The notes under the pieces: generated by a model | Told to the model about the DNA's origin: nothing | The model's database searches: none | Seen by the model: only the letters and a program-made list of their open reading frames with translations | Assembly (NCBI GenBank): GCA_033391075.1 | Contig: JAWPMV010000001.1 | Location: 2,542,001-2,606,000 of the forward strand | Length of the DNA: 64,000 nt | Origin: Bacteroidia bacterium | GTDB lineage: Bacteria > Bacteroidota > Bacteroidia > J057 | Reading direction: 5' to 3' | Made by a program: the position numbers and the translations under genes | In this document: positions 2,052 through 35,118 of the stretch, in pieces | Numbering within the stretch: position 1 is the stretch's first letter | How the letters are laid out: each line of letters starts with the position of its first letter

Positions 2052-2066
2052 GTTTTTCTTTTTAGA

Positions 2067-4571: not shown

Positions 4572-4629
4572 GTTTTGATGTTTAGGATCAGATGATTGAT
4601 GTTCGACCTTCGAATATAAACAAGAAAAA

Positions 4630-5214
4630 TTAATTCGCATCCACGATTCGTCGATAATCTTCATCCGTATCGACGTCCCATCCAGCTTCTTCACAAGGGA
4701 TGAGGATACTTTCTTTTTGGTATTTCTTTAAGATATATTTTGCGCCTGCTTTTCCTTCCAGTTGCAAAATCTCCTGAAAATAAATTTGGGGTATCACTGC
4801 AGGGACGCCTACGGACTTTTGATATAGGCTTGTGATTAACTTTTGATTCTCCTTGAATGAATCAAGGAGTTGCTGGTAATGAGACAGGGGAATCAGGGGT
4901 TGATCACTCAGGCAGATCAGGACTCCATCAACCTCTTTTTCCAGAGAATTTATTCCTGCAATCAAACTGCTTGACATTCCTTCTTTCCATTTGGGGTTCT
5001 CTACGATTCGGGTGTTGATTTGCGTATCCTTGATATGCTGGGATATTTTTTCGAATCTTGCCCCCAATACGGTTATGGGCTTGGAAATTCCCGCTTTTTC
5101 AAGTTTATCTATAAGTTGCTGAATAAAAGACTTATTCTTGTATTTTAGCAATTGCTTGGCTCTTCCCAATCTGCTAGAACTGCCTGCTGCCAATATGATC
5201 GCCGATATTTTCAT
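4630..5214 (-). CDS. MobA-like NTP transferase (molybdenum cofactor cytidylyl/guanylyltransferase family)
   Basis: 194 residues starting MKISAIILAAGSSSRLGRAK, the nucleotide-binding LAAGxSxRxG signature of MobA/MocA-type nucleotidyltransferases. A further conserved element is LICLSDQPLIPLSHYQ near residue 97, with the metal-binding Asp, and the GVPAVIP segment near 137. Size and motifs fit the MocA-like branch, which attaches CMP or GMP to molybdopterin. Similar proteins also act on other nucleotides or sugars, and no other molybdenum cofactor gene is in the window. The gene lies 58 bases upstream of the PIG-L gene on the same strand and may be co-transcribed with it. Confidence 0.8.
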   Translation of the reverse strand: MKISAIILAAGSSSRLGRAKQLLKYKNKSFIQQLIDKLEKAGISKPITVLGARFEKISQHIKDTQINTRIVENPKWKEGMSSSLIAGINSLEKEVDGVLICLSDQPLIPLSHYQQLLDSFKENQKLITSLYQKSVGVPAVIPQIYFQEILQLEGKAGAKYILKKYQKESILIPCEEAGWDVDTDEDYRRIVDAN

Positions 5215-5352
5215 GAATATTTAGGGTCTTTGTTTGGGATTATTGTCAAATAAATGCCTAATTTTTGGATTCCAAAAATAGATCTAAACTACATAAACCA
5301 GCGTACTAACGCTTTATTATCCTAATCTTACATTTAACCAAAGCCGATTCAA

Positions 5353-6984: not shown

Positions 6985-7001
6985 CAGGAGATTTGCATAA
7001 T

Positions 7002-7038
7002 AAAAAAGAGGGACAGATAATTTCTGTCCCTCTTTTTT
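7002..7038. terminator. Bidirectional rho-independent terminator
   Basis: A perfect 15-bp stem (AAAAAAGAGGGACAG at 7002-7016 pairing with CTGTCCCTCTTTTTT at 7024-7038) encloses a 7-base loop. With A-runs on one side and T-runs on the other it can end transcription from both convergent genes, the T9SS protein on the left and the outer membrane protein on the right. Confidence 0.9.
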
Positions 7039-7049
7039 AATTCCTATGA

Positions 7050-8249
7050 TTAGAAGCTCCACCTCAATCGGATATATCCGCTACTTGCTGCATGCCCATA
7101 TCCTAAAGTAGGGGCGCTTGCAAATACACTTTGCGCAATCAAATCCAGGTCCCAATTCTCGACGATAGAATAGGTGAGGGTAGGGACAAGGATTGTCAAA
7201 TCATTATCAGGCGCATAAATCGTAACCATGCTAAAGGTCATCAGGGGATTTATTTGTCCTGATCCCTGACCGGCAAAAGTCCAGGTGGAGGGGAATAGAT
7301 TCTTGGCCGAAGGAAGTGCCGTGAATAGGTTGGACTGTCCTCCTAATGCATTGGCCCTTTTCGCATTGCTATTATAGAGAATCCCTCCCGTGATATAAAT
7401 CCCATTATCAAAGGAATAGTCAGCTCCCAGGGAGAAGTTAAGCGAGGAGATAGAATCTGTTGAAGGGGATAAAGGAATGAAGGCAGTTCCTTCCCCTTTA
7501 AATCCTACATTCTTTATACTACCTGCCCATCCTCCTCCAAGTGCAAGGTCGCCTCTGAAATAACCTGCCAGAGCCTGAAAGTCATAACCTTTGATATTGA
7601 ATTTATATAATGCTGCGGCCGTCGAATTTGAAAGAGTATCATCTGGTGCCCAGGCCAATTCCATACTAGAAACTGCTCCTGTATAATACTGAAAACGAAT
7701 GGCATCACTACCTGGCCTTTCTTCATAATCAAAATCCAGGAAATTCAAGGCATTGAAAAGATCATTGGGATTCCAAAAGGTATTGATTCCCCAGTTGATC
7801 CTTTGCCGTCCTACCCTCAACTCCCATTTTTCTGCAGCATAATTGACATATGCTCTGTCAAAAATAGTATGTAAGAGCAAGTCTTTACTATCAGCCCATC
7901 GGATAGACAAATCCAATAAGCCAATTTCCGGATCGATTTGATCTCCAAAGCTTGGATCCAACTTTACTTGCTCCCCCCAAAATAAACGATTTCTTGCTTC
8001 AACAGCTATGGTCCAGGAATCATTTGCATAATATTTCAGATTCAAACGATTGTGAAAAAAGCTATTTGTCAAGGGGAAAGTGCCTGTCGTATCTCCTCCA
8101 GCAAATGTGGCTATTTGTAAATATTTCACATAGCCGCCCAACTGCCATTTACTTTCTTCTTCCTGTGAGAAGCCTGATGTAGATGACAGATTTAGGCAGA
8201 GAAATACAAACAGAAACTTGCGGAAAAGGGCGCTAGTTTTTGTGTTCAT
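7050..8249 (-). CDS. Outer membrane beta-barrel protein, last gene of the ABC export operon
   Basis: 399 residues with a signal peptide (KFLFVFLCLNLSSTSGFSQ) and alternating beta-strand segments. It has the porin-like phrases YVNYAAEKWELRVGRQRINW and WNPNDLFNALNFLDFDYEE, and ends in an aromatic residue (YIRLRWSF), typical of barrels inserted by the Bam machinery. The RVGRQRINWG...NPND region resembles DUF1302-like and phosphate-selective-porin-like barrels. Its start overlaps the 3' end of the ABC ATPase gene by 17 bases (8233-8249), so it is co-translated with the export module. It may be the outer membrane partner or receiving barrel, which is inference. Confidence 0.7.
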   Translation of the reverse strand: MNTKTSALFRKFLFVFLCLNLSSTSGFSQEEESKWQLGGYVKYLQIATFAGGDTTGTFPLTNSFFHNRLNLKYYANDSWTIAVEARNRLFWGEQVKLDPSFGDQIDPEIGLLDLSIRWADSKDLLLHTIFDRAYVNYAAEKWELRVGRQRINWGINTFWNPNDLFNALNFLDFDYEERPGSDAIRFQYYTGAVSSMELAWAPDDTLSNSTAAALYKFNIKGYDFQALAGYFRGDLALGGGWAGSIKNVGFKGEGTAFIPLSPSTDSISSLNFSLGADYSFDNGIYITGGILYNSNAKRANALGGQSNLFTALPSAKNLFPSTWTFAGQGSGQINPLMTFSMVTIYAPDNDLTILVPTLTYSIVENWDLDLIAQSVFASAPTLGYGHAASSGYIRLRWSF

Positions 8250-8916
8250 CAGAAACGATTTTTCCGTCTTCGAGCGTTACGACTCTTTTGGCTCTATCGA
8301 TTACCCGCTGATCATGGGTTGAGAATACGAAGGTGATGTTTTCTTTCTCATTTAACTCTGCCATGATATCCAGCAATTGGGTGGTCGACTGAGAATCCAG
8401 GTTAGCGGTTGGTTCATCTGCCAGGACAAATTTAGGTTTGGATGCCAAAGCGCGTGCAACTGCTACCCTTTGCTGTTGCCCCCCTGAAAGCTGGTTCGGA
8501 CGGGTATTGATTTTATCTCCCAGTCCAACGGCATGTAGTAATTCCTCTGTTCTTTGCTCTCGTTCAGCTTTAGATCTTTTCTGCATGAGCATTACGAACT
8601 CGACATTCTCTTTGGCTGTCAAAACGGGGATCAAATTATAGGCCTGGAATACAAAACCGATATTTTGAAGACGAAAGTCAATCATTTGATTTTGACTCAG
8701 AGAGGATATGTCAATTGCATCAACAAGGATATTTCCAGAACTGGGTTGATCCAGACCGCCGATGATGTTGAGTAGGGTTGTTTTTCCAGAACCGGAAGGC
8801 CCAACAATGGCAGTGAATTCTCCTTCTGATATCTGAAGGTCAACTCCATTGACCGCATGAACAGGAACTACTCCTTCATATACTTTATGTAGATCGCGGG
8901 TTTCTATAATATTCAT
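8233..8916 (-). CDS. ABC transporter ATP-binding protein (LolD/MacB type)
   Basis: 227 residues with all nucleotide-binding motifs: Walker [10 protein letters not shown] near 39-47, Q-loop [13 protein letters not shown] near 89, signature LSGGQQQR near 142, Walker [10 protein letters not shown] near 161 and switch His in STHDQR. The Q-loop and signature are those of the LolD/MacB/FtsE class, which powers lipoprotein extraction or efflux through FtsX-fold permeases. Two such permeases lie directly upstream and a LolA-like gene before them. It powers this module at the inner membrane. Confidence 0.92.
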
Positions 8917-8934
8917 TGTCTTTTTTGTTAAAGG

Positions 8935-10200
8935 TTAAATGGCCCGAACTGCTTCGGATGGATTGAGTTGAAGGGCTTTGTAAGCCGGATAGATGGCTGA
9001 AAGCAAAGCGGTAAGGATCACCATAATGATGATTTCCTGATAGGAGCTGGTCGGTAGTTCAGGATAAACTATACTACTGAATCCAAATTGCTCGGAACCT
9101 TCTGTAAAGACTCCCATATCAATCCCTTTTTCGCCAAAATAGGTAATCAGTCCCCAGCCGGTAAGTAAACCTACCGGAGCACCAACGAAAGTCAGGAAGA
9201 CCGTTTCCAGCATGATCATGGAGAAAATTTTCAACTTATTCATCCCCACTGACATGAGCATACCTAGTTCACGGGTCCTTTCCAAAACAGCCATAAGCAT
9301 TGTATTTATAATGCCAAATGCCAAAGCCAATAAAATGATAAACATGACTATGCGGCTACTTGCAGCTATGGTTTCTGCAAAGAATTGGATGTCAGGTGCA
9401 ATGTCGCTCCAGGTCTCGACTTTTACCCCCTCATTACCGGCTATTGCAGGCAAAGCATTCACCTTGCTCAACTTGTCCTCTATGAATTCCTTTCTATCAT
9501 CAGTAATCAGGGCAATTTCATGGATTTCTCCCGGTATCTCCAGAATATGATCCACATCCTGTTTACGGATAAAAACCTGAGCTTCTTCCAATAAAGAATT
9601 GGCAGTTTTATAAACCCCGACAACCTTTACTCTTAAGGATGAAATTTCATTGCTGGCAGTTTGAAAGCGAAATACAAGCCTTCGTCTGAAATTGTAACTG
9701 TCTTCTCCATTTTCATCTGTTATTTTTACCCCAATCTTCTCTGCCAGTTTTCGTCCGACAACTATTCCGACTGACCTTCCTTCCTTAAAATAATCTCCAG
9801 CGACCATTCGCTCTTTAAGTAAGGTTAGTTCAGCTTCTTCTTCTGGATTTATACCGATCAATTCTACGCCAAAGTTGCCTTTGCTACTTTCCAGCATTGC
9901 AGGGATAAGAATCCTGCCACTGATTGATTTAACATAGGGTTCTTTCGCAAGTGCCTCAAAAACCTGAGGCCCGTTTTCCATTATAAATTTGGTTTCACCT
10001 CCTTTTTCGTATTGTGGGTGGTGAAGTTGTATATGAGAGATTTGAGTTTGGATGATGTCGCGCGTACGGCTTTCTAGTATCCCGAATTGGAGGGAAACCA
10101 TGAAAACGCCAGACACCAGGCCAATAGCAATCGCTAAGCCTACGATGCCGCTTCTGAGCGGATTTCTCCAAACATTCCTCCAGGCTATTAATGGTATCAT
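8935..10200 (-). CDS. ABC transporter permease, FtsX/MacB fold (second of pair)
   Basis: 421 residues. The N-terminus is LIAWRNVWRNPLRSGIVG, typical of LolC/E-type permeases, followed by one membrane helix. A periplasmic MacB-like core domain spans about 45-270. A C-terminal FtsX domain has three helices (MFIILLALAFGIINTMLMAV; then ELGMLMSVGMNKLKIF, the cytoplasmic coupling segment; the last helix ends AIYPAYKALQLNPSEAVRAI). It starts 10 bases after the preceding permease and should form a heterodimer with it. The cargo is probably a lipid or lipoprotein, by analogy with Lol systems. Confidence 0.88.
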   Translation of the reverse strand: MIPLIAWRNVWRNPLRSGIVGLAIAIGLVSGVFMVSLQFGILESRTRDIIQTQISHIQLHHPQYEKGGETKFIMENGPQVFEALAKEPYVKSISGRILIPAMLESSKGNFGVELIGINPEEEAELTLLKERMVAGDYFKEGRSVGIVVGRKLAEKIGVKITDENGEDSYNFRRRLVFRFQTASNEISSLRVKVVGVYKTANSLLEEAQVFIRKQDVDHILEIPGEIHEIALITDDRKEFIEDKLSKVNALPAIAGNEGVKVETWSDIAPDIQFFAETIAASSRIVMFIILLALAFGIINTMLMAVLERTRELGMLMSVGMNKLKIFSMIMLETVFLTFVGAPVGLLTGWGLITYFGEKGIDMGVFTEGSEQFGFSSIVYPELPTSSYQEIIIMVILTALLSAIYPAYKALQLNPSEAVRAI

Positions 10201-10210
10201 AAGTGGATAG

Positions 10211-11428
10211 TTAGGTTCGCATGGCTTTAATAGGATCCAGACGAAGTAATTGAAGAATAGGGTAAATGCTAATGAGGAGAGTAATGATTAAAACCACCAG
10301 AGCCTGAGAGGCAATAACGCCCATATCCAAAGCTGTTGGAATGATGGGAGCGATGTTAAATGCTTCATAAGCTTTGGCTGCTTCTCCTTCAAAGGTGATG
10401 GGATTGATTTGGAAATAGGTAATAATAGGTATCGCCGCTACAAATCCGGCGATTACTCCCAGGATAGCCATGATAACCATCTCCAGGGTCAGCAATTGGG
10501 CTAACTTCCCTTTTTTCATGCCTATTGCTGTCATTACCCCAAATTCATACTGACGCTCATTGATCATCATTAGCGCTGTACCAAATATCCCGAATCCGAT
10601 AATCACATAAAGGATGGCCATGAATAAATATCCACCTGCCCTGTCTCCTTCAATCATCTTGATGAGATCAGGACTTAGTTCTGTCCAGGGCATAACTTCA
10701 TATGCTTCGCTATCCAATTCTGCCTTCAATGCCTGAGCGACACTTTCAGATTGCTTGGGATTCTCAACATTGATCGCATAGGAAGTCAGGCGCTCATGTG
10801 CGACAAACATTTCTTGGGCCTCTTTAAGAGGAAGAAACATGATCCGCTTGTTGAGCAAAGGGCTGGCGTATTTAACAATCCCAATAATAGGATAGATTTC
10901 ATTAGCAGAAACCCCATGATATCCCTGTCCCAGAAGAATCAGACTATCACCTACACCCACTTTCAACTTCTCTGCAATTCCCTGGGCGATCATTAAGCCC
11001 CGATCATCAGAAGTCAGGTATCTTCCTTCTACAACTTTCTCTGCAAGATTAGTTAATTGATCCTCTTGTTCCGGTTCCGTCCCAACTATTTGGGCGATGT
11101 GAGTCTTTTCTCCCGAGGAAATTAACAAGGCAGATTCAATACGGGGAGTAGCAACCGTAACTCGCTGTTCTTCGGAGAGTGCGGTCTTGATCAACTCAAT
11201 GTCTTCGAAGCTATTGTCCAGTTTTTGTTCATCCCAGTATCCATTTTGATGAATCTGGATATAACCGGAATAAAAACTCACGGCATTCTTGATCATCTCA
11301 TTGTAACTCCCTTCTTGTAGAGAGCGCATGAAGGTAGACAAGATTACCGCTACAAATATGGAGGCTGTGGTAATCAATGTGCGCCTTTTATTTCGCCAAA
11401 GATTACGCCATGCCAATTTTAATAACAT
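10211..11428 (-). CDS. ABC transporter permease, FtsX/MacB fold (first of pair)
   Basis: 405 residues with the same architecture as the downstream permease. It begins LLKLAWRNLWRNKRRTLIT, has one helix, then a periplasmic domain (about 45-270), then the FtsX domain with coupling segment RQYEFGVMTAIGMKKGKLAQ and the ending YPILQLLRLDPIKAMRT. The two permeases are paralogous but clearly diverged, as in LolC/LolE. It lies 46 bases after the LolA-like gene, in a run of five same-strand genes. Confidence 0.88.
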   Translation of the reverse strand: MLLKLAWRNLWRNKRRTLITTASIFVAVILSTFMRSLQEGSYNEMIKNAVSFYSGYIQIHQNGYWDEQKLDNSFEDIELIKTALSEEQRVTVATPRIESALLISSGEKTHIAQIVGTEPEQEDQLTNLAEKVVEGRYLTSDDRGLMIAQGIAEKLKVGVGDSLILLGQGYHGVSANEIYPIIGIVKYASPLLNKRIMFLPLKEAQEMFVAHERLTSYAINVENPKQSESVAQALKAELDSEAYEVMPWTELSPDLIKMIEGDRAGGYLFMAILYVIIGFGIFGTALMMINERQYEFGVMTAIGMKKGKLAQLLTLEMVIMAILGVIAGFVAAIPIITYFQINPITFEGEAAKAYEAFNIAPIIPTALDMGVIASQALVVLIITLLISIYPILQLLRLDPIKAMRT

Positions 11429-11474
11429 GTGTATAGATTATGTGGTTTTGTGAATCGATAGTAGTGAATGCGAA

Positions 11475-12230
11475 TTAACGCACACGTTTCATATTCTGGA
11501 CGCTGAAAAAGTTTTCAGAAATACCGGTATCAAATTCAATGTTCTGATATTCGATCACAGTTTTATGGCCTTCATCTTCGACAGGAAGCATTTCCAGTTT
11601 GGTCGCAAAGGTTTTTCCTCCCAATGTTTTGATATTGGAAGCGACCATAACATTTATCAGGTAGTCGTCTTCGTCATAAAACTCATTTCTCAAGGTGAGA
11701 TAGTCTTGCTTATCCACCCAAACATAAACTTTGCTCCAAACTACTGCAGCATCATCATGCGGGATCATCTCGATCTTCCAACAAGGACGATCGCCAATGG
11801 TTGAATCTCCCAAGACTTTGAGGTCGTAATCCCTTATTAGAGAAGCTTCTCTTACCAGGTCATCATTGGTGAAATCAGAGCCCATCCAGGATTGGGACAT
11901 CATAGAAGGTGGGAGCTTGATGGTTCTCTCAATGCGAGGCATCCAGTTCCATACTTCCTTTACCCTTTTCAAGGTAACAGTTCCCAAATCTCTTTTTGGA
12001 GCTGTAACCAGCATGATGGCATAGTCATCTCCCTTGGACCAACTTTTCATACTCATCGTTCGAGACCAGCTTGGTCTGACAATGGTCATGGTCATTTCCG
12101 CTTTAGAACTGGTCGCTCCTCTGCGGACTTCTTCTGCTTTGGTGATGATGTCAACCGCGGATTGAGCCTGTACTTTCCCAAAAGAAAGCAATAAAGCGGC
12201 GATAAGAATAGTGAATATGTGAAATTTCAT
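11475..12230 (-). CDS. LolA-like outer membrane lipoprotein-sorting protein
   Basis: 251 residues with an N-terminal signal peptide (FHIFTILIAALLLSFGKVQAQ). The family's hallmark phrases are VWNWMPRIERTIKLPPSM, SWMGSDFTNDDLV, and a late strand KTFATKLEMLPV. Members adopt a LolA/LolB-like half-barrel that can carry an acyl chain across the periplasm. Directly following are two FtsX-type permeases and a LolD-type ATPase, so this is probably a dedicated periplasmic carrier for that transporter and not the housekeeping LolA. The gene lies 19 bases downstream of the tetR gene. Confidence 0.85.
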   Translation of the reverse strand: MKFHIFTILIAALLLSFGKVQAQSAVDIITKAEEVRRGATSSKAEMTMTIVRPSWSRTMSMKSWSKGDDYAIMLVTAPKRDLGTVTLKRVKEVWNWMPRIERTIKLPPSMMSQSWMGSDFTNDDLVREASLIRDYDLKVLGDSTIGDRPCWKIEMIPHDDAAVVWSKVYVWVDKQDYLTLRNEFYDEDDYLINVMVASNIKTLGGKTFATKLEMLPVEDEGHKTVIEYQNIEFDTGISENFFSVQNMKRVR

Positions 12231-12249
12231 TATTAGAATGTTTTAGTTT

Positions 12250-12828
12250 CTACTTACAGTACTTTTTTATCAAGTGCTCTTTCAGATCATCCAGGGGCAA
12301 TTCTTCTCCCAGCACCAGATATTGCATGCCGATCCCGTCAAGGGCAGCAGATATAGTAATAGCTTCTTCTTTTGGATCTTCTGCCCCCAAATCTTCCAGC
12401 AGCATAGTCATCAAAGGTAGAGTACCCTTGTACCTTGCCAGGATTATATCCTTCAGTTTGGGGAAATCTTCCATTTGCATTGCCAGACTTACCATTAATT
12501 TTGAATGATGTTTTTGGGTGCGAAAATAGTCGAATGAAAAATCTATCAGAAATTTGAAGCGATCCTTTGAGTTTGTCAGTCGCCCCATTTTTTCAATAAT
12601 TACATCTCCCTGCTTCATTTCTTCAAAGACAATTTGATTCATCAAGTCCTCCTTGTCGGCAAAGTAATTATATATCAGGCCTTTAGATACGCCAGCCAAT
12701 TTTCGGATTTGTTCGATGGAAGTATTGTGAAAGCCACGACTTGCAAAAAGTTCAAGAGCGGCCTCCAGAATCTTGCTTCGACTCTGTTGCCGGATGACTT
12801 CATTTTGTGCAGGAGATTTGGGACTCAT
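12250..12828 (-). CDS. TetR/AcrR family transcriptional regulator of the export operon
   Basis: 192 residues. The N-terminal helix-turn-helix spans about 15-60 (ILEAALELFASRGFHNTS, then IRKLAGVSKGLIYNYF), a textbook TetR signature. The C-terminal ligand-binding half is poorly conserved, as usual. It is the first gene of a five- or six-gene same-strand run leading to the LolA-like, permease, ATPase and barrel genes. A 20-bp imperfect palindrome sits 7 bases upstream of its start, so autorepression of the operon is likely. The ligand is unknown. Confidence 0.9.
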   Translation of the reverse strand: MSPKSPAQNEVIRQQSRSKILEAALELFASRGFHNTSIEQIRKLAGVSKGLIYNYFADKEDLMNQIVFEEMKQGDVIIEKMGRLTNSKDRFKFLIDFSFDYFRTQKHHSKLMVSLAMQMEDFPKLKDIILARYKGTLPLMTMLLEDLGAEDPKEEAITISAALDGIGMQYLVLGEELPLDDLKEHLIKKYCK

Positions 12829-12834
12829 ATATTT

Positions 12835-12854
12835 TTGGGTGACCGGTCAGTCAA
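12835..12854. promoter_or_regulatory. Candidate TetR operator palindrome
   Basis: TTGGGTGACCGGTCAGTCAA contains the perfect 10-bp palindrome TGACCGGTCA (12840-12849) with matching TTG/CAA outer arms. Sixteen of 20 positions are symmetric. It lies directly upstream of the tetR start, between divergent genes. GACCGGTC-centred palindromes are common TetR-family operators, so autoregulation and possibly control of the divergent lipoprotein operon are inferred. Confidence 0.65.
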
Positions 12855-12935
12855 TTATACGGGCCAATTTAGGAAAAAGATATAATTAGGGCTAATTTCA
12901 AGTCTCGGATTTTTGAAAAATGCTCCTATAAGCTT

Positions 12936-13514
12936 GTGAAGAAAGATTTTTTAATAAAAATAGTGCTGGGATTCTCACTTCTCTGGGCGCTTTCCTCCTG
13001 TTTTCAGGTAAGGAATGTGGAACCTCCGGGCATTGTGAGTTCGGATTGGATAAGTCCTACTGACTATGAAATTCTTTTGCAAAACCTCCAGCGATCAGTG
13101 GGTAATACCAATGTTCAGAATTACCTCCGCTGCTTTAATAATGATTCCTTGAGGTTTACTCCTGCTGCCTCTCTTTTCAATGATAATGAACCGATCTGGT
13201 TGGCCTGGTCCATACAGGATGAACAGGCTTATTTTGATAACATGATTCAGAATCTTACAGTTTCGACTGGAAATTCTTTGGTTTTGAGAGAGACAGAATT
13301 GCAGAATGTTGATGCTGATTCTCTGACCTATGTGGGAGAATATACCCTGAGAATCAATCACCGGGATACCACTTTGACCACCTTGTTCAAGGGACAAATA
13401 CAATTATTGATTAAATTGAACGAGTTTAACGAATGGGAGATCAGCCGTTGGCAGGACATTGAATTGATCCAGGACAGCAGTTGGAGCCAGTTAAAATTAA
13501 GCTTTGTTCAATAA
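12936..13514 (+). CDS. Lipoprotein of unknown function, first gene of the PAP2 operon
   Basis: 192 residues from a GTG start; no in-frame ATG precedes the signal sequence. The N-terminus KIVLGFSLLWALSSC is a lipoprotein signal with the lipobox Cys near 22. The mature part begins with a helix-rich segment (DYEILLQNLQRSV), followed by alternating strands (VGEYTLRINH, GQIQLLIKLNEFNEWEISRW). This resembles an NTF2-like cone fold, though the fold is inferred only from the pattern. It is followed after one base by a second lipoprotein of similar layout. Function unknown; probably periplasm-facing. Confidence 0.7.
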   Translation: MKKDFLIKIVLGFSLLWALSSCFQVRNVEPPGIVSSDWISPTDYEILLQNLQRSVGNTNVQNYLRCFNNDSLRFTPAASLFNDNEPIWLAWSIQDEQAYFDNMIQNLTVSTGNSLVLRETELQNVDADSLTYVGEYTLRINHRDTTLTTLFKGQIQLLIKLNEFNEWEISRWQDIELIQDSSWSQLKLSFVQ

Positions 13515-13515
13515 G

Positions 13516-14040
13516 ATGCAGAAGTTCAGGAAATTCCTCATCCTCATAAGCGCGCTAAGCAGCATAGCTGTTGGCCTGGGGAGTTGTAATCCTTTTGCAC
13601 CTGCTTATGATCCGGAAGGTCTTGCCAATGTAAATCTTCTGGGAGATCCCACCAATATTGATGGATATTTCCGCTTATTCAAAAACGCTTATGAACTAAG
13701 AGATACCTCCTTATATGGTACTCTCTTTGACGCGGACTTTATTTTTGCTTATTACGATCCTGACTTGGGACAGGAAATCCAGTGGGATCGAGATACCGAA
13801 TTGTCAACTTCCTTCAATCTCTTTCAGTCTGTCATACAGATCAACCTGGATTGGAATTATTATACACAACTGGATACCACCGAAGTAGAAGCTGCCATTA
13901 TCAGGAATTTCAACCTGAATATTGAGCAGGATGAGCAGAATGTTTTTTCGGGTTCAGGTAGAGCCAGGTTCAAATTACGTCGGGAATCTGTAGGAGATGC
14001 CTGGCGCGCATATTTTTGGTTTGATGACTCAGACTTTTAG
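13516..14040 (+). CDS. Second lipoprotein of unknown function in the PAP2 operon
   Basis: About 174 residues from the ATG at 13516, one base after the previous stop. An upstream TTG at 13504 is also in frame but adds only four residues. The signal sequence KFLILISALSSIAVGLGSC contains a lipobox Cys. The mature part (GYFRLFKNAYELRDTSLYGT, then strands such as GSGRARFKLRRESV and a WRAYFWFDD end) has the same helix-then-sheet layout as its neighbour and may be a distant NTF2-like paralogue. Its 3' end overlaps the first PAP2 gene by 17 bases. Confidence 0.7.
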   Translation: MQKFRKFLILISALSSIAVGLGSCNPFAPAYDPEGLANVNLLGDPTNIDGYFRLFKNAYELRDTSLYGTLFDADFIFAYYDPDLGQEIQWDRDTELSTSFNLFQSVIQINLDWNYYTQLDTTEVEAAIIRNFNLNIEQDEQNVFSGSGRARFKLRRESVGDAWRAYFWFDDSDF

Positions 14041-14776
14041 TTCCCGCCTAAGGCAAAATATTAAAGAATTAGGCCCATTTATGGGGACCTGCTTGCTATA
14101 TGCATTCGCTCTTGGGGGCTTGCTTATGGCTATGGGTTATTACGACAGTTTTTTATACCTAAATGCCATTCGAACCCCATTTTTGGATGCCTTTATGCCT
14201 CACTTTACCCATCTGGGGGAAGGGGTTACGATTGCTATGATCTTTGCATTTTTGATTTTTAATAGAGATCGGGCACTGGTCAATACCCTTATCGTGGCTT
14301 TACTGCTGCTGGGCATAGTCTTATGGAGTTTAAAGCAATTTGTATTTGTCGGATGGAATAGGCCCCCCAAGGTTTTTGAAAACCTTACTGATATATACTA
14401 CATCAGTTTGGGAGGAGAAAAATATAAAAGCTTTCCTTCGGGCCACAGTTCAGCCGTTTGGATGATGATGAGTTTTATGGCTTTTTATCTTCGGGATAGT
14501 AAGAAAATCTGGCAGTTTCTGGCAGCAATCATAGCCATCTCAGTAGCTTATTCCCGGGTATATATCGGCGTTCATTTTCCCGGAGACATATTGGCAGGAA
14601 GCTTTATTGGAGTCGGATTAGGTTTGCTAAGTATTAGCTTTCATTATCCTCGTATGCAGCTTAGAGAAAGGGAAGGTAGATTAAACCAGGGATACAGAAG
14701 CATTGCCTTACAAGGATTTATGGTATTTCTACTTGTAGGAAGTTTAATCCGCATGTACCAGGACTATTACATCTGA
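14024..14776 (+). CDS. PAP2 superfamily membrane phosphatase (first copy)
   Basis: About 250 residues from ATG 14024, with six likely membrane helices. PAP2 motifs are present. A Lys/Arg-Pro motif lies in FVFVGWNRPP, with spacing slightly longer than the classic KX6RP. Motif 2 is SFPSGHSS and motif 3 is SRVYIGVHFPGD, with the catalytic His. Such enzymes dephosphorylate lipid pyrophosphates or phosphates such as undecaprenyl pyrophosphate, lipid A or phosphatidate; the substrate is unknown here. The start was chosen inside the 3' end of the preceding lipoprotein gene (17-base overlap), which removes nine unlikely N-terminal residues of the longer frame. The stop overlaps the next PAP2 gene by one base. 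Confidence 0.88.
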   Translation: MTQTFSSRLRQNIKELGPFMGTCLLYAFALGGLLMAMGYYDSFLYLNAIRTPFLDAFMPHFTHLGEGVTIAMIFAFLIFNRDRALVNTLIVALLLLGIVLWSLKQFVFVGWNRPPKVFENLTDIYYISLGGEKYKSFPSGHSSAVWMMMSFMAFYLRDSKKIWQFLAAIIAISVAYSRVYIGVHFPGDILAGSFIGVGLGLLSISFHYPRMQLREREGRLNQGYRSIALQGFMVFLLVGSLIRMYQDYYI

Positions 14777-15384
14777 TGCTAGAATTACTGTTGGAATGGG
14801 ACCTTGAGTTGTTTCAGCTTATCAACTCCGCAAATCATCCTTTTTGGGATGAACTCATGTTTTACATAAGTGAAAGATTGACCTGGATTCCCGCCTATCT
14901 TTTCTGTCTGTATTGGGTAATAAAAAAAGAAAATGCCAAAGGCATACTGCTATTTTTTATAGCCATTGCATTACTCATCGCTTTTGCGGATCAATTTACC
15001 TCCGGTTTTATGAAACCTTATTTTCAAAGGTTTCGGCCATGTAGAGCAGAGGCAGCCCTGGATTTTGCCGTGCATATTGTTCATGGTCATTGTGGAGGAA
15101 AGTTTGGCTTCGCTTCTTCACATGCAGCAAATTTCTTTGCTTTGGCGAGCTTTCTGTCCTATTATTTTGCCAAAAGAAAAATCAGCATTATCCTCTTCAG
15201 TTGTGCAGCAATTGTTGCCTTTAGCCGCGTTTATTTGGGTGTCCATTATCCCGGAGATGTCTTGGTAGGTGCCCTGATAGGCATGCTGGGAGGATTTTTG
15301 ATTTCCCGCTTACATCTTTTCGCAAAAGATAAAGCCTTCAATCAAAAGATTGAAGGCTCCCATCAGCATGGCAAAAGCCATTAA
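14776..15384 (+). CDS. PAP2 superfamily membrane phosphatase (second copy)
   Basis: 202 residues, about five membrane helices. Motif 1 is canonical (KPYFQRFRP), motif 2 is FASSHAAN in place of PSGH, and motif 3 is SRVYLGVHYPGD. The SSHAxN form of motif 2 occurs in Bacteroidota undecaprenyl-diphosphatase and lipid-phosphatase-like members. The start overlaps the previous stop (TGATG). The two copies are distinct in sequence and probably non-redundant. The last 18 codons hold an 11-bp perfect inverted repeat that reads as a terminator on the other strand. Confidence 0.88.
   Translation: MLELLLEWDLELFQLINSANHPFWDELMFYISERLTWIPAYLFCLYWVIKKENAKGILLFFIAIALLIAFADQFTSGFMKPYFQRFRPCRAEAALDFAVHIVHGHCGGKFGFASSHAANFFALASFLSYYFAKRKISIILFSCAAIVAFSRVYLGVHYPGDVLVGALIGMLGGFLISRLHLFAKDKAFNQKIEGSHQHGKSH
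15321..15358 (-). terminator. Rho-independent terminator for the leftward gene, embedded in PAP2 coding sequence
   Basis: On the minus strand, AGCCTTCAATC, a TTTT loop and GATTGAAGGCT make a perfect 11-bp stem (15333-15358), followed by the T-rich stretch TTATCTTTTG. It lies 54 bases past the stop of the leftward gene at 15412-15915 and inside the final codons of the convergent PAP2 gene. Confidence 0.65.
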
Positions 15385-15411
15385 AGAAAGTAAATTATAG
15401 TATCTCGTAAT

Positions 15412-15915
15412 CTACTTGGCCATAGTAAGCTCCGCAATGAAAGACTCAGTCTTCATGCGAGGGCCATACTTACGGCTTGTACTCTTTAAGTGTACTTCAG
15501 CGCGAAAAGGCCTAGCGTTAGAGTAAATAATTACTTCCGTCATCTTATTTTCATCCACTGCAACAAAGTGCTGAACGTCTTTTGAGTTGAAAGCTTTGTA
15601 GACTTCTCCTTTGCCTTCAAGATAGGATAAACAGCCATTCAGCGCATCCTGGGCATCTTTTAGGCTGGCATAGGATCTTTTATCTTCTACAGCATATAGC
15701 TTGTCGGTCTTGAAATAATATTTTATTTCATTGATAGAATCAATTTTACTGCTGAGGATCTCGCCATCCATTTTTTCTACAAGTTCCAGGTAATCTCGGG
15801 TCTGAAGAAAGGAGTCAACCCTGGTCGAATTCTGCCCAAAATCTAGAAATAGGACATTTTGCCCGAATGTAGCCAGGGAGCAGAGCAAGAATGTAATCAG
15901 AAAAGCAAACTTCAT
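15412..15915 (-). CDS. Secreted protein of unknown function
   Basis: 167 residues beginning with a clear signal peptide (MKFAFLITFLLCSLATFGQ). The mature part is alpha/beta and fairly charged, with no motif I recognise. Strand-like phrases are HFVAVDENKMTEVIIYSN and FRAEVHLKSTSRKYGPRM. It is a single-gene unit facing the PAP2 operon, with a terminator inside that operon's last gene. A periplasmic protein seems likely; function unknown. Confidence 0.7.
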   Translation of the reverse strand: MKFAFLITFLLCSLATFGQNVLFLDFGQNSTRVDSFLQTRDYLELVEKMDGEILSSKIDSINEIKYYFKTDKLYAVEDKRSYASLKDAQDALNGCLSYLEGKGEVYKAFNSKDVQHFVAVDENKMTEVIIYSNARPFRAEVHLKSTSRKYGPRMKTESFIAELTMAK

Positions 15916-16078
15916 ATGGTAGATTTACAAGAATGAGGCCATTTATATATTTAGACGGTTTATTAATTTTTTGTAAATTACGCTTGTTCGTACTAGTTTA
16001 AAATCAACAATATCCTTAATTCTTACTTATGCCTCTTAAGGGGCTGGAAAGGCATTTGCTACAATTCCTGAAATTCAA

Positions 16079-16109
16079 TTTCAAATTCTAAAAACAGATT
16101 GTACTTTTG
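16079..16109 (+). promoter_or_regulatory. Bacteroidota-type promoter of pyrG
   Basis: A -7 element TACTTTTG (16102-16109) matches the TAnnTTTG consensus. It is preceded after 19 bases by TTTC (16079-16082), one base off the -33 TTTG. The start codon follows 26 bases downstream. Consensus matching only. Confidence 0.5.
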
Positions 16110-16135
16110 CGCTTTCGTAATCGTTTGAAATATAA

Positions 16136-17785
<1,650 letters not shown>

Positions 17786-17828
17786 GTGAATTTCTCATTG
17801 CATTCTCGCAGAATCAAAAAATAGTATG

Positions 17829-17836
17829 TACCTTTG
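17829..17836 (+). promoter_or_regulatory. Possible -7 element upstream of yidC
   Basis: TACCTTTG matches TAnnTTTG, but no good -33 TTTG is found at the usual distance, and the leader would be about 90 bases. Weak call; read-through from pyrG is an alternative. Confidence 0.3.
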
Positions 17837-17929
17837 TCCCCTGATTTTGGAGAGAAATTTAGGTCTGATAAAGTTTTGTAATTTTTCCAATATACACACG
17901 ACTAATAGGCCTGAGAATTAAATATACTC

Positions 17930-19828
17930 ATGGATAAAAATGCGATTACGGGATTGGTGTTGATGACGTTGTTGACAATAGTGTATTTCACCTATTTTGC
18001 ACCCAAACCCCCTCCACCAGAAGAAAATACCTCTACGGAAAGTCAGACAGAGCTGGTCGAAGAGGCTGATATGACGGAAAGTCCGACAGAATCAGTACCA
18101 GAACTCGATGCAGTTGCTCAGGATTCCATTAAGAAAGCCCAGAAGCTTGGCAAATTTGGATCATTCTACCAACTGACTGAAGGAGAGGCAAAAAATATCG
18201 AAATCAAGACGGATAAATTTGATCTTGGGGTCAATAGCAAAGGAGGAGCCATTAACTCGGCTTATCTGAATGATTACAAAACATTCGACTCCCTGCCTTT
18301 ACCCATGATTGATCCGAATCTGCCCAATAACTTCGATTTCTCCTTTTACAATGACAATAAGGTTATAGCCAGTTCTGATCTTTACTTTCAGGCCTCTAAA
18401 AGTAAAATCAATCTTACAGGATCTGATTCTACTAAATTGGTTCTGACTGCAAAAGTTGATGACAACAAATCGCTGGAGCAGATTTACACCTTTTACGGCG
18501 ATCGGTATGATATCGGCTATGAGATTCGGATGAAAGGCTTAAAGGATGGACTGGGAAATATCTCTTATTTCGATATCAACTGGACCAATACCCTGCCGAA
18601 GACAGAGCTTTCTGTAGAAAATATGCGCCAGAAAACCTTCTTTGCTTATAAAGAAGGCAATAGCGTAGAGAAAGCAACTGCATCAGATGAAATTACCGAA
18701 GAGGCCATTAAAAATGGATTTGACTGGCTGGCATATAAGAGTCAGTTCTTTTCTATGGTTCTGATTGGAGAAAAACCTTTCCGTTCTGGTAAAGTAAAAA
18801 TGGGAACGCCTCCCGTGGATGATGTAAACCGCATCATGGAGTCCAAGGTGAAAGTTGATATTCCTCGTTCAGATGATATCAGCAATAGCTTCCGGATATA
18901 CATGGGACCCAATGAGTACGCTACCCTCACCTCCTATGATATGGGACTGGAGAAGCAAATGGACCTCGGATGGTGGGTAATCAGTTATATCAATGTAGGT
19001 ACTACCTATATTTTCAAATTTCTTGAGAAATATATCTCGAATTACGGGATCATTATTATCATTCTGGCCCTTATCATTCGTACCATGGTATTGCCGCTCA
19101 CCTATAAGAGCTACAAGTCCATGGCGAAAATGCGGGTGCTGAATGCGACTCCGGAAATGAAGGCTTTGGATGAAAAGCACAAAGATGATCCTCAGAAGTT
19201 GCAAATGGCCAAAATGGGCATTTATAAGGAAATGGGAGTGAGTATGTTTGGAGGCTGTCTACCCATGCTATTATCTTATCCCTTTCTGATTGCCCTGTTT
19301 TTCTTCTTCCCGCAATCGGTAGAGTTGAGGCAACAATCCTTCCTTTGGGCCAATGACCTTTCCACTTACGATAGCATCTTTAACTTCGGTTTTAGTATTC
19401 CTGCATATGGAGATCACATCAGTCTCTTTACCCTGCTGATGGCGATATCGACTTTCGTTTATACTTTCTACCAACAAAAATCTCAACCGACAGCAGGTGC
19501 CAATCCAGCCATGAAGTACATCGCTTACTTTATGCCTATTGTCCTCCTGATCTTCCTGAACAACTATGCTTCAGGTCTGAGTTTGTATTACCTTACTTCC
19601 AACATCATTTCAATTTCTCAAACCCTTCTGATCCGCCGTACGATCAATGATGAAGATCTGCTAGCACAGATGAGAAATACCCAAAAGCAAATGAAAGGCA
19701 AGAAAGGGAAAAAGAAATCCAAAAGCCGTTTGGAAAAATGGGTAGAAGGGCAGCAAAAGAAGCAGCAGGATATGATGAAAGACCGCAAAAAAGCTGCAGG
19801 TCCTAACAGAAGAAGCAAAAGAAAATAG
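17930..19828 (+). CDS. yidC: Membrane protein insertase YidC
   Basis: 632 residues, the long Gram-negative form. An N-terminal membrane helix (NAITGLVLMTLLTIVYFTYF) is followed by an acidic linker and a large periplasmic beta-supersandwich domain (about 60-345). The conserved five-helix insertase core runs from about 355 to 580, with the cytoplasmic loop MAKMRVLNATPEMKALDEK and GGCLPMLLSYPFLIALFF. The C-terminal tail (590-632) is very Lys/Arg-rich, consistent with ribosome contact. It inserts proteins into the inner membrane with or without SecYEG. FtsY, which targets the same clients, is encoded about 14 kb away. Confidence 0.96.
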   Translation: MDKNAITGLVLMTLLTIVYFTYFAPKPPPPEENTSTESQTELVEEADMTESPTESVPELDAVAQDSIKKAQKLGKFGSFYQLTEGEAKNIEIKTDKFDLGVNSKGGAINSAYLNDYKTFDSLPLPMIDPNLPNNFDFSFYNDNKVIASSDLYFQASKSKINLTGSDSTKLVLTAKVDDNKSLEQIYTFYGDRYDIGYEIRMKGLKDGLGNISYFDINWTNTLPKTELSVENMRQKTFFAYKEGNSVEKATASDEITEEAIKNGFDWLAYKSQFFSMVLIGEKPFRSGKVKMGTPPVDDVNRIMESKVKVDIPRSDDISNSFRIYMGPNEYATLTSYDMGLEKQMDLGWWVISYINVGTTYIFKFLEKYISNYGIIIIILALIIRTMVLPLTYKSYKSMAKMRVLNATPEMKALDEKHKDDPQKLQMAKMGIYKEMGVSMFGGCLPMLLSYPFLIALFFFFPQSVELRQQSFLWANDLSTYDSIFNFGFSIPAYGDHISLFTLLMAISTFVYTFYQQKSQPTAGANPAMKYIAYFMPIVLLIFLNNYASGLSLYYLTSNIISISQTLLIRRTINDEDLLAQMRNTQKQMKGKKGKKKSKSRLEKWVEGQQKKQQDMMKDRKKAAGPNRRSKRK

Positions 19829-19831
19829 GTC

Positions 19832-20554
19832 TTAAATAAGATCCATAGGAGTCTTTATGAGGAGAGGGGTTTCAGAAATGAATCCTTCTCCATATAAAGC
19901 TCCCGCTCTATGACCCATATCCCGGGCACGAGCTTCCAGAAAATCCCAGAATCCCTTGCTGGAAATGTAGGTTTGTGGCTCATCCCTTTTACTTTCCGGA
20001 TCAAAAAATTGGGAACCAAAAGCCTTGATAGCTGTACATTTTCCCTCCCAATAGGGCGTAATATCAACGACGAAGTCAGGTTCGAGGGCATGATCCTGGA
20101 TATAGAAACAAAATCTTTTGGGTCGCCAGGCTGCTTGTTGCTCTCCATCCATCTCAGTTTTAATCATGCGAAGCCCACTGTAGAAAATAGCATCACGAAC
20201 GAGTTTGGAAGCTCTTCCATGATCGGGATGCCGATCCTGAGGGGCATTTGCGATTACCAGTTCTGGCTGATACTTTCTGACCATGCGAATGATTTCCTTT
20301 TGATGGGCTTCATCCTGGACAAAAAAACCATCACGAAATCCCAAATTCTCTCTTGCACTCAATCCCATGAGCTTGCTGGCCGCTGCTGCTTCTTCCATCC
20401 TGAGTTCAACCGTCCCTCTCGATCCCAGGTCTCCTTTAGTTAAATCAATTACTCCAACTTTGTAGCCATTATCTATCAATTTGAGGATAGTTCCTGAACA
20501 GCCTAATTCTGCATCATCAGGATGTGCAGCAAATACCAGTACATCTAATTTCAT
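19832..20554 (-). CDS. bshB1: Bacillithiol biosynthesis deacetylase BshB1
   Basis: 240 residues, LmbE/PIG-L fold. The start MKLDVLVFAAHPDDAELGC carries the zinc-binding AHPDDAE motif. The third zinc ligand is in RHPDHGRAS near 115. The GFRDGFF and SQFFDPES segments fit BshB1, which removes acetate from GlcNAc-malate before cysteine is added. The partner BshC gene is in this window at 38758. It starts six bases after the T9SS gene and its 3' end lies three bases from the convergent yidC stop, with no terminator between. Confidence 0.9.
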   Translation of the reverse strand: MKLDVLVFAAHPDDAELGCSGTILKLIDNGYKVGVIDLTKGDLGSRGTVELRMEEAAAASKLMGLSARENLGFRDGFFVQDEAHQKEIIRMVRKYQPELVIANAPQDRHPDHGRASKLVRDAIFYSGLRMIKTEMDGEQQAAWRPKRFCFYIQDHALEPDFVVDITPYWEGKCTAIKAFGSQFFDPESKRDEPQTYISSKGFWDFLEARARDMGHRAGALYGEGFISETPLLIKTPMDLI

Positions 20555-32153: not shown

Positions 32154-33701
32154 CTAAAAGGGAACACTGCTATCTCCGCCTCCACCTCCGCTAGCCGGAT
32201 CATTCATTTTAGAAGGCAGGGTAATGGTGTTTCCTCCACCTGCATCCATACCAAAGGCATCAAAATCAGAAGTGCCTCCCTGTGTCCAGTCTCCGAACTT
32301 ACCGTACTTGCCGATAAATTGCATATCGACATTTCCTGTAGGGCCATTTCTTTGTTTGGCTATGATAAGCTCAGCCTTTCCTAAGGTTGAGTTGCCTTCA
32401 TCATCTGTTTCAAAGCCATAATACTCTGGACGATAGAGGAACATAACGATATCCGCATCCTGCTCAATAGATCCAGATTCCCTCAAGTCACTCAATACCG
32501 GGCGTTTGTCTCCTCCCCGGCTTTCCACAGCACGACTCAACTGAGAAAGTGCGATCACACAGACATCCAGTTCTTTTGCCAATTCTTTCAGAGATCGCGA
32601 AATGGCTGCAATCTCCTGTTCACGATTACCTCCTTTATTTGAAGGTCCGGTCATCAACTGCAAATAGTCAATGATGACCATGCTGATATTTTTCTCAGCC
32701 TTAAGTCTTCGGCATTTGGCTCTAAGGTCCCAAATGGAGAGGGCAGGGGTATCATCAATAAATATTTCGGTCTTACTCAAAGATCCGATTCGAGTAATCA
32801 GCTGCTTCCACTCATAATCTTCCAGGCGACCGGTACGAACCTTTTGGGCATCGAGCTCTGCTTCTGAAACAATCAAACGTTGGGTCAACTGAACAGCCGC
32901 CATCTCCAGTGAGAAGAAAGCTACGGCTTCTCCAAAACGAAGGGAAGCATTTCTGGCCAGGGTAAGGGTGAAAGCAGTTTTACCCATTGCAGGTCTTGCT
33001 GCAATGATTACGAGGTCAGTCTTGTTGAAACCAGCCGTCATTTTATCCAGCTCAACAATACCGGATGGAATACCGGTAACACTGCTGTCTTTTCCCCTCA
33101 TTTCCTCAAGGCGCTCCAAGGTCTTCATCACCAATTCAGGCATCCCAAGGTAATTTCTCCTCAAGTTGGTTTCAGAAATTTCGAAGAGAGATTGCTCGGT
33201 TTGATCCAATAAATCAAACACATCCGTGGTTTCATTGTAGGCATCCTTTACTACCTGATCTGAAACGATGATAAGCTGCCGAAGAATAAATTTCTCAGCG
33301 ATTACACGAGCATGGTATTCAATATTGGCCGCAGAGGCTACCCGCGAGGTCAATTCTGTAAGATAAAAGGCACCTCCGGCTTCCTGTAGTTTGCCTTCTT
33401 TTTTTAAGGCATTTTTGACTGTAAGGATATCAATGGGCTCTGAATTCTGAAAAAGGGCAAGAATCTGCTCAAAAATGACCTGGTTGGCATCTTTATAGAA
33501 CATATTGGGCTTGAGGATATCCATGATCCGGTGCAGGGCATCCTTTTCCAACAATAGGGCTCCCAACACAGCTTCTTCCATATCCAGAGACTGGGGAGGT
33601 AGTTTTCCACCTAAAGGAGAAGTAGAAAGGCTTTGGACCTTACCTTGTGCAGTATTTGGGTTACTGTACTTGCTCGGAGTACGCTTGCTGTTCTCAGCCA
33701 T
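32154..33701 (-). CDS. dnaB: Replicative DNA helicase DnaB
   Basis: 515 residues, close to the usual 460-520. The N-terminal domain (about 35-150) with PPQSLDMEEAVLGALLLE binds primase. After a linker, the RecA-type ATPase has Walker A AARPAMGKTAFTL near 240, MVIIDYLQLM near 345 (Walker B) and DLRESGSIEQDADIVMFLYR near 425. There is no intein. The C-terminus is Gly- and Asp-rich. A TATATTTG promoter lies 43 bases upstream, and a DnaA-box cluster begins further upstream in the same gap. Confidence 0.97.
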   Translation of the reverse strand: MAENSKRTPSKYSNPNTAQGKVQSLSTSPLGGKLPPQSLDMEEAVLGALLLEKDALHRIMDILKPNMFYKDANQVIFEQILALFQNSEPIDILTVKNALKKEGKLQEAGGAFYLTELTSRVASAANIEYHARVIAEKFILRQLIIVSDQVVKDAYNETTDVFDLLDQTEQSLFEISETNLRRNYLGMPELVMKTLERLEEMRGKDSSVTGIPSGIVELDKMTAGFNKTDLVIIAARPAMGKTAFTLTLARNASLRFGEAVAFFSLEMAAVQLTQRLIVSEAELDAQKVRTGRLEDYEWKQLITRIGSLSKTEIFIDDTPALSIWDLRAKCRRLKAEKNISMVIIDYLQLMTGPSNKGGNREQEIAAISRSLKELAKELDVCVIALSQLSRAVESRGGDKRPVLSDLRESGSIEQDADIVMFLYRPEYYGFETDDEGNSTLGKAELIIAKQRNGPTGNVDMQFIGKYGKFGDWTQGGTSDFDAFGMDAGGGNTITLPSKMNDPASGGGGGDSSVPF

Positions 33702-33743
33702 AGAGGAATCTATGTTAGATGTTTATTCCAGGACAAAAGGGCT

Positions 33744-33775
33744 CAAATATACGAAAAGGAATATTCGACAAACAA
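33744..33775 (-). promoter_or_regulatory. Bacteroidota-type promoter of dnaB
   Basis: On the minus strand, the -7 element TATATTTG occupies 33744-33751. A -33 candidate is TTTG at 33769-33772 (17-base spacer) or TTG at 33773-33775 (21-base spacer). The start codon follows about 42 bases downstream. Confidence 0.5.
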
Positions 33776-33839
33776 TCCTTTTTCCTGAACGGTTGCTGCA
33801 TATTTTTATTCTATTACGCATTTTTAAGCAGTCCTCTTT

Positions 33840-33957
33840 TTTTCCACAAATATTGACTTTGGCATAAGCCGCCTAGCATAAGGAAATTAAGTTCGAAGGA
33901 GATTTATTCACAGTAATTCACAAGTCTGGGGAAAGAATGTGGATAAGTATTGGATAA
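33840..33957. other. Cluster of DnaA-box-like sites (candidate oriC or DnaA-regulated region)
   Basis: The gene-free stretch 33702-34146 is A/T-rich and holds several 9-mers close to TTATCCACA. They are TTTTCCACA (33840-33848), TTATTCACA (33904-33912, fits TTATNCACA), TAATTCACA (33914-33922), the exact consensus on the minus strand (TGTGGATAA, 33938-33946) and a weaker ATTGGATAA (33949-33957). Four of the five lie within 54 bases. The stretch separates leftward dnaB from rightward ftsY. It could be the chromosomal origin or a DnaA-controlled promoter region. No dnaA gene is in the window. Confidence 0.45.
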
Positions 33958-34109
33958 GTATTCTTCTTTCGCCCCCACTCAATCTGCGTGAACGGGAATT
34001 TCCTGCTTGCGCTTTATATTGTAGTAAAGATAAGAATATTAGCGAAAGCGAGCTAAATTTATTTACATGTACCCCTAAAAGACAGGCATTATTTTAAGCA
34101 CTCATTTCG

Positions 34110-34117
34110 TATATTTG
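34110..34117 (+). promoter_or_regulatory. -7 promoter element of the ftsY operon
   Basis: TATATTTG matches TAnnTTTG and lies 29 bases before the ftsY ATG. No clear -33 TTTG at the standard spacing. A 7-bp inverted repeat, ACAGGCA (34082-34088) and TGCCTGT (34120-34126), brackets the element and could be an operator. Confidence 0.45.
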
Positions 34118-34146
34118 CCTGCCTGTTTTTAAAAAGAGGAAACACT

Positions 34147-35118
34147 ATGTTTAACTTTTTCAATAAGAAAGAAAATAAGGATAAGCTCGACAAGGGCCTG
34201 GAGAAGACCAAGGTCGGCTTGATGGGAAGACTTAATCGTGCGATCCTGGGTAAATCCAAAGTCGATGAAGAGGTCCTGGATGAGCTGGAAGAGGTCTTGA
34301 TTGCGAGTGATGTGGGGGTGAAAACTACAGTTCGAATCATCGAACGTATTGAAAGCCGGGTTTCTGATGATAAGTATACCAGTGCAAAAGAACTGGATTA
34401 TATCCTGAAAGATGAAATAGAAAAACTAATTCTGGAAAACCATCCGGAAAGTCTCAACTATTTTGAAATACCTGAGATCAGGAATGAAGGCCAAAAGCAG
34501 CCCTACGTGATCATGGTGGTGGGAGTAAATGGTGTGGGCAAGACAACCACAATCGGCAAACTGGCGCACAGATGGAGAGATCAGGGGAAATCGGTCTTGA
34601 TGGGTGCTGCAGATACCTTCCGTGCCGCCGCAGTTGATCAATTGAAACTATGGGCAGATAGAGTAGGAGCTGATTTTTATTCGAAAGGAATGAATACTGA
34701 TCCTGCCGCTGTAGCCTATGAGTCGGTAAGGGAAGGCCTGAATAAAAATTCAGATGTAATCATCGTGGATACTGCCGGGCGATTACATACAAAGAGGGGC
34801 TTGATGGATGAGCTCTCAAAAATCAAGCGAAGTATGGACAAAGTTATGCCCGGAGCACCACATGAGGTCCTCTTGGTTCTGGATGCAAGTACCGGGCAGA
34901 ATGCGATTATACAAGCAGAAAAATTTACAGAAGCCACAGACGTAACCTCTTTAGCCTTGACCAAACTTGATGGGACTGCAAAAGGAGGAGTAGTCATTGG
35001 TGTTTCGGATCGATTCAAAATACCGGTGAAGTTTATTGGAGTGGGAGAAGGAATGGATGATCTCCAGACTTTTGACCCCAAGGAGTTTATTGATTCTATG
35101 TTTGAGCTAAAATCCTGA
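34147..35118 (+). CDS. ftsY: Signal recognition particle receptor FtsY
   Basis: 323 residues, the short form without the long acidic A domain; the N-terminus is Lys/Glu-rich. The NG core has VGVNGVGKTTTIGKLAHRW (G1) near 125, the DTFRAAAVDQL insertion box motif, VDTAGRLHTKRGLMDEL (G3), and LTKLDGTAKGGV (G4) near 280. It docks SRP-bound ribosomes at the membrane by paired GTP hydrolysis. It is the first gene of a six-gene rightward run; rimO starts four bases after its stop. Confidence 0.96.
   Translation: MFNFFNKKENKDKLDKGLEKTKVGLMGRLNRAILGKSKVDEEVLDELEEVLIASDVGVKTTVRIIERIESRVSDDKYTSAKELDYILKDEIEKLILENHPESLNYFEIPEIRNEGQKQPYVIMVVGVNGVGKTTTIGKLAHRWRDQGKSVLMGAADTFRAAAVDQLKLWADRVGADFYSKGMNTDPAAVAYESVREGLNKNSDVIIVDTAGRLHTKRGLMDELSKIKRSMDKVMPGAPHEVLLVLDASTGQNAIIQAEKFTEATDVTSLALTKLDGTAKGGVVIGVSDRFKIPVKFIGVGEGMDDLQTFDPKEFIDSMFELKS

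Follow-up and report, generated by a model that had tools for sequence, protein, structure and literature searches.

A DnaA-box array upstream of dnaB in a Bacteroidia genome as a candidate extra-oriC regulatory site of the replicative helicase gene

Introduction

The extra-oriC DnaA sites of E. coli are short TTATCCACA-like arrays found at nrdA, rpoH, polA and mioC as well as at datA, DARS1 and DARS2, and DnaA prefers pairs of boxes 2-3 bp apart, according to the part of PMC11317965 that describes them; dnaB does not appear in the list of DnaA-bound sites given in that part. In Caulobacter crescentus, DnaA boxes are predicted upstream of dnaB and the gene is counted as a member of the DnaA regulon, as stated in the passage of PMC8203912 that cites Hottes 2005. 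For Bacteroidota, a non-exhaustive literature search aimed mostly at origins found no DnaA regulon. The datA and DARS sites additionally need IHF or Fis sites.

Here we describe a DnaA-box array in the divergent intergenic gap between dnaB and ftsY of a Bacteroidia genome (five contigs, 9.49 Mb), located in a 64,000-bp stretch of DNA (the window, C1:2542001-2606000) of the 8,164,022-bp contig C1. The array resembles the Caulobacter case in that the predicted boxes lie upstream of the replicative helicase gene (PMC8203912, in the passage cited above) but it belongs to another phylum, recurs across a family and is known from sequence alone. It has in common with the extra-oriC sites of E. coli that it is a short array off oriC with box pairs spaced by 2-3 bp, although dnaB is absent from the E. 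coli sites listed in that part of PMC11317965. Like a bacterial oriC, for which the thiL gap of the same contig serves as comparison, it places DnaA boxes in an A/T-rich gap, but its place is by the opposite skew pole, and neither parS-like sites nor mnmG are linked to it. We propose that it is probably an extra-oriC array in the regulatory region of dnaB, through which DnaA would modulate dnaB transcription, a function that is, by analogy, already known in kind.

Results

The DnaA-box cluster in the dnaB-ftsY gap is real (Table 1), with one exact and two one-mismatch boxes within 107 bp of the gap. An earlier note on this DNA, which took the gap for a possible chromosomal origin, had counted one exact and three near matches in 118 bases; the count holds if a two-mismatch box is accepted as near, since only two boxes have a single mismatch. 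The note had located the gap correctly between the two genes, with a length of 446 bases that is 445 bp by our coordinates, and had described it rightly as A/T-rich (64.3% A+T vs 57.7% in the whole window) and gene-free, in that no ORF of at least 100 aa lies fully within 33702-34146 and a mechanical frame of 120 aa (33505-33867) extends into it. The number of boxes across the window is at chance level (17 found, 18.1 expected). When the window was dinucleotide-shuffled 300 times, no shuffle held a triple that spans at most 107 bp and includes an exact box, and 1 held any triple at all, therefore about 0.5 triples of the latter kind would be expected per 9.5-Mb genome. When clusters were ranked by an ad hoc score over 1.65 Mb of the genome, a sample that includes stretches chosen for their exact boxes, the window array came joint fourth with two others, one of which is the thiL gap. 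A head-to-tail pair spaced by 2 bp is also present in relatives (L084, L089).

Table 1. Coordinates of the dnaB-ftsY gap, its candidate elements and the features at the thiL pole (window positions unless marked C1).
Feature	Position	Strand	Basis or remark
dnaB-ftsY divergent intergenic gap with DnaA-box array	33702..34146		445 bp
dnaB, replicative DNA helicase	32154..33701	-	TIGR00665, 549 bits, above cut-off
ftsY, SRP receptor	34147..35118	+	TIGR00064, 346 bits, above cut-off
pyrG	16136-17785	+	Pfam
yidC	17930-19828	+	Pfam
Exact DnaA box TTATCCACA	33938..33946	-	sequence match
DnaA box TTTTCCACA, 1 mismatch	33840..33848	+	sequence match
DnaA box TTATTCACA, 1 mismatch	33904..33912	+	sequence match
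Weak box TAATTCACA, 2 mismatches	33914..33922	+	sequence match
Weak box TTATCCAAT, 2 mismatches	33949..33957	-	head-to-tail with exact box, spacing 2 bp
Weak box, 2 mismatches	34059-34067	+	sequence match
TATATTTG, possible -7 element of dnaB promoter	33744..33751	-	50 bp upstream of the gene
TTTG, possible -33 element of dnaB promoter	33769..33772	-	read by eye
TATATTTG, possible -7 element of ftsY promoter	34110..34117	+	read by eye
thiL gap, gene-free, 857 bp	C1:6768550-6769406		between enoyl-CoA hydratase-family gene and thiL
parS-like palindromes TGTTCCACGTGGAACA	C1:6776046, 6776103		ybeY-mnmG gap
parS-like near copy	C1:6775989		ybeY-mnmG gap

The pyrG and yidC genes, which the note had named to the left of the gap, are upheld by Pfam. 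Its coding tilt around the gap was confirmed locally, the plus-strand share of coding being 34% to the left of position 33,900 and 71% to the right, but it carries no weight as evidence for an origin because 48.4% of the sampled coding (64 samples) lies on the leading strand of a thiL origin, a share that gives the thiL origin no support either. No Rfam match at gathering scores was found within the window, and T9SS sorting tails were found on encoded proteins.

Thirteen family genomes were compared, in 12 of which the dnaB upstream region was readable, G009 being left out as its locus comes without upstream sequence; for matches that begin within the protein, the dnaB start is an extrapolation of the alignment. 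Within 300 bp of the extrapolated start, 10 of the 12 readable genomes have one or more boxes with no more than one mismatch, and 9 of them have two or more such boxes upstream, at positions from -108 to -293 with one extra at -73, whereas none were found in G001 (278 bp upstream examined) or in G012 (broken dnaB). The broken dnaB matches of G002, G011 and G012 were read separately and excluded from the shuffle and density statistics. Shuffling gave p < 0.01 for the dnaB boxes in 7 of the 8 family genomes tested, and p 0.077 for the single box of G010. Near boxes per 320 bp upstream of dnaB number 2.71 in the family (n=9 genomes) and 1.67 in other families of the order (n=9; at least one in 8/9, at least two in 4/9), compared to 0.27 at class level (n=11, those of 18 genomes searched that yielded loci) and 0.34 among named genomes, distant relatives at no more than 60% identity (n=77, the loci out of 80 with at least 300 bp upstream). 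The background in the sampled part of the window's own genome is 0.107, a value more likely over- than underestimated, since exact boxes were the reason for choosing some of the stretches. From relative to relative the dnaB boxes differ in position and orientation, and the sequence around them aligns poorly. Boxes upstream and their recurrence with the gene in relatives, two of the features by which a DnaA-regulated promoter would be recognized, were thus both found at dnaB.

Possible promoter elements for both genes were read against a -7/-33 consensus that we presume to apply here. In five of nine family genomes the TANNTTTG motif is found at a distance of 50-87 bp from dnaB on its upstream side; it is absent from the 340 bp upstream of dnaB in three and is present only elsewhere in one. 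Head-to-tail pairs in the family dnaB arrays (n=12, permitted gap range 0-16 bp) are separated by 1-3 or 12-14 bp, which gives a box-to-box distance of about one or two helical turns for pairs that are few and non-independent, whereas the 34 pairs of the thiL arrays display a broad spread of gaps without such a pattern.

The position of the origin was examined by GC skew. Sampled 20-kb stretches have positive skew in 23 of 31 cases from 6.9 Mb via the contig ends to 2.5 Mb, and negative skew in 23 of 29 cases between 2.66 and 6.8 Mb; apart from some exceptions, the mean skew of third codon positions agrees with this division. Origin scoring over 64 samples, which presumes that the contig is circular and its poles are separated by half its length, and which takes the skew from samples rather than from the whole contig, put the best positions at 6.68-6.78 Mb, with +0.0435 for the thiL gap and -0.0433 for the window gap, and the best score was reached by 0 of 2000 shuffles. 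The thiL gap holds five boxes, exact ones at 6768774 and 6769291 and three with one mismatch in between, and three parS-like sites (C1:6775989-6776118) at 57-bp spacing are found together with mnmG (6777389) 6.6-8 kb beyond it. In a parS search of the whole genome with at most two mismatches, CACGTG-centred sites occurred only at 6776046 and 6776103, two other genomic places fitting the typed consensus with two mismatches and both without the central CACGTG; a reversed-pattern control returned 2 forward and 2 reverse matches vs 4 and 4 for the true pattern. No parS-like site was detected in the sampled stretches of 2.52-2.76 Mb (at most three mismatches, prefiltered on the centre). The SSU rRNA genes found (696482, plus; 3754483, minus) both point away from the thiL gap (2/2), and neither points away from the window gap (0/2).

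An orthologue of thiL is present in 12 of the 13 family genomes, nine of which have at least four near boxes (4-13) within 1.1 kb upstream, and the exceptions (0, 1 and 1 near boxes) are all three genomes of genus g9. Outside the family, none of 18 thiL loci has two or more near boxes in 1.1 kb, only 233 bp being available upstream of L141, and among the loci examined the thiL array is seen only in this family. The 7.54-Mb contig of G003, from a second genus, has its skew minimum at 3.77-4.15 Mb (20 samples), adjoining thiL at 3.788 Mb, and shares the gene order around thiL with the window's genome; no good parS site was found in 20 sampled stretches of G003. The region at the thiL skew pole is origin-like.

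Discussion

Read from sequence are the array, its recurrence at dnaB, its independence of ftsY and the origin-like region at the other pole. In the mechanism that we propose, DnaA would bind the boxes of the gap, some of them paired head-to-tail approximately one helical turn apart, at sites roughly 70-185 bp upstream of the likely dnaB promoter, and dnaB transcription would be modulated according to the availability of DnaA; we infer both this effect and its sign. The putative boxes do not overlap this likely promoter, therefore activation or modulation would be likelier than simple blocking, which is a guess.

We regard it as extremely unlikely that the gap is the chromosomal origin, oriC, as the earlier note had suggested. 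A box cluster in an A/T-rich gap with divergent coding around it, and with dnaA only 95 kb away, does invite this reading, and, were the skew sign inverted, the position of the gap beside one of the poles would permit it. With the usual sign, however, the skew minimum falls near 6.7-6.8 Mb and the gap lies by the maximum, the multi-box thiL gap, parS-like sites and mnmG are assembled at 6.769-6.777 Mb, and forks coming from the gap would meet both of the SSU rRNA genes found head-on; in G003 it is thiL that coincides with the skew minimum, while the box-bearing dnaB (0.892 Mb) is some 0.87 Mb from the opposite point. An origin at the gap was rejected on the skew minimum lying elsewhere and on the parS-like sites, mnmG and rRNA strands that mark the thiL pole; of the features of an oriC, the window gap has the boxes in A/T-rich DNA and lacks the skew, the linkage to parS or origin genes and the rRNA orientation. 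An additional DnaA-dependent site of initiation near the terminus, auxiliary or ancestral, would likewise bring together a helicase gene, DnaA boxes and A/T-rich DNA, and genus g9, in which thiL has 0-1 near boxes in all three genomes and dnaB has three exact boxes in G008 and G011 and none in G012, might be read in its favour, but the two-pole skew fits the samples without sign of a second origin, the boxes are few and the gap is short, which makes such a site highly improbable.

The same boxes could be imagined to act on something other than dnaB, or on nothing. Regulation of ftsY was the other half of the fallback offered by the note, DnaA control of dnaB or ftsY, and in two genomes, G004 and that of the window, ftsY does diverge from the gap that holds the boxes. 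The distance between the two genes, however, is 7.5 kb in G003 and 3.8 kb in G007, where the boxes remain with dnaB, and in other, fragmented assemblies the genes are on separate contigs. Among the 12 of 13 family genomes with sequence upstream of ftsY (500 bp), near boxes are absent from eight and single in two, and more than one occurs only in the two where ftsY adjoins dnaB. Control of ftsY was rejected, as boxes are absent or single where the genes are separated, and we give this half of the fallback hardly any credence, the evidence favouring dnaB. A chance cluster without function would agree with the box number of the window and with the triple seen in one shuffle of 300, yet it would leave to coincidence that 10 of the 12 family genomes that could be read have boxes at dnaB and that, in the order's other families, 8 of 9 genomes have one near box or more, and is very unlikely. 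It is somewhat less unlikely, though still improbable, that the array is mainly a datA- or DARS-like site for DnaA titration or nucleotide recycling with no effect on dnaB: such a site beside dnaB would look identical, other clusters exist outside the origin (C1 939183, 3142179, 3742108 and 2009050), and in the window's genome the array lies close to the presumed terminus, a location in which late replication of a titration site would be expected. A titration site would have no need to stay with dnaB, however, and the array does so at differing distances from the origin-opposite point (about 0.11 Mb here, the larger distance given above in G003).

Modulation of dnaB by DnaA may not stand by itself. 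The strongest cluster by the ad hoc score in the 1.65 Mb examined (C1:939183-939255, L045) lies upstream of a parA/soj-like gene, in a stretch that entered the sample because of its exact boxes. Counting the genome's own gene, at least one near box is found within 500 bp of the parA/soj orthologues in 11 of 11 genomes and at least two in 9 of 11, the set being the 11 of 12 genomes with matches after the best match in G004 (38%) was not taken as an orthologue; G005 gave no match. The conserved parA/soj array therefore makes a small DnaA target set of dnaB and parA plausible, and these genes provide a concrete, testable set of putative targets. The point opposite the thiL gap is at approximately 2.687 Mb, about 15-16 kb from the dnaA gene itself (C1:2670995-2672431, L029), and dnaA of G003 (C1:1-1449, L143) is about 17-18 kb from the corresponding point, distances that presume complete circular contigs; the neighbours of dnaA are partly common to the two genomes, and inspection by eye of 150 bases upstream of dnaA revealed no DnaA boxes. 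No convincing dif site was found in the sampled stretches or in a comparison with positions 1-20000 of G003, so that the terminus is placed by skew alone. It is tentatively conceivable that DnaA operates a small conserved circuit in this family, which would couple initiation to helicase supply and chromosome partition through the dnaB and parA/soj arrays, and that, with dnaA opposite the origin, the initiator and helicase genes would be replicated late, their dosage reporting completion of the round.

Boxes that are beside dnaB and near dnaA do not mark the origin here, which corrects an error that is easily made, and rotating a genome to dnaA would in this case let it begin at its terminus. 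The G003 contig starts at dnaA, which we infer to be the result of such a rotation.

Further clusters with two exact boxes each are located at C1:3742108-3742155 (L032), 3142179-3142210 (L046) and 2009050-2009081 (L008), one of the three upstream of a PhoH-like gene. In genus g9, the loci with three exact dnaB boxes are L092 and L243 (G008 and G011), and the thiL loci L121 and L124 have no near box or one; in this genus the origin may have shifted.
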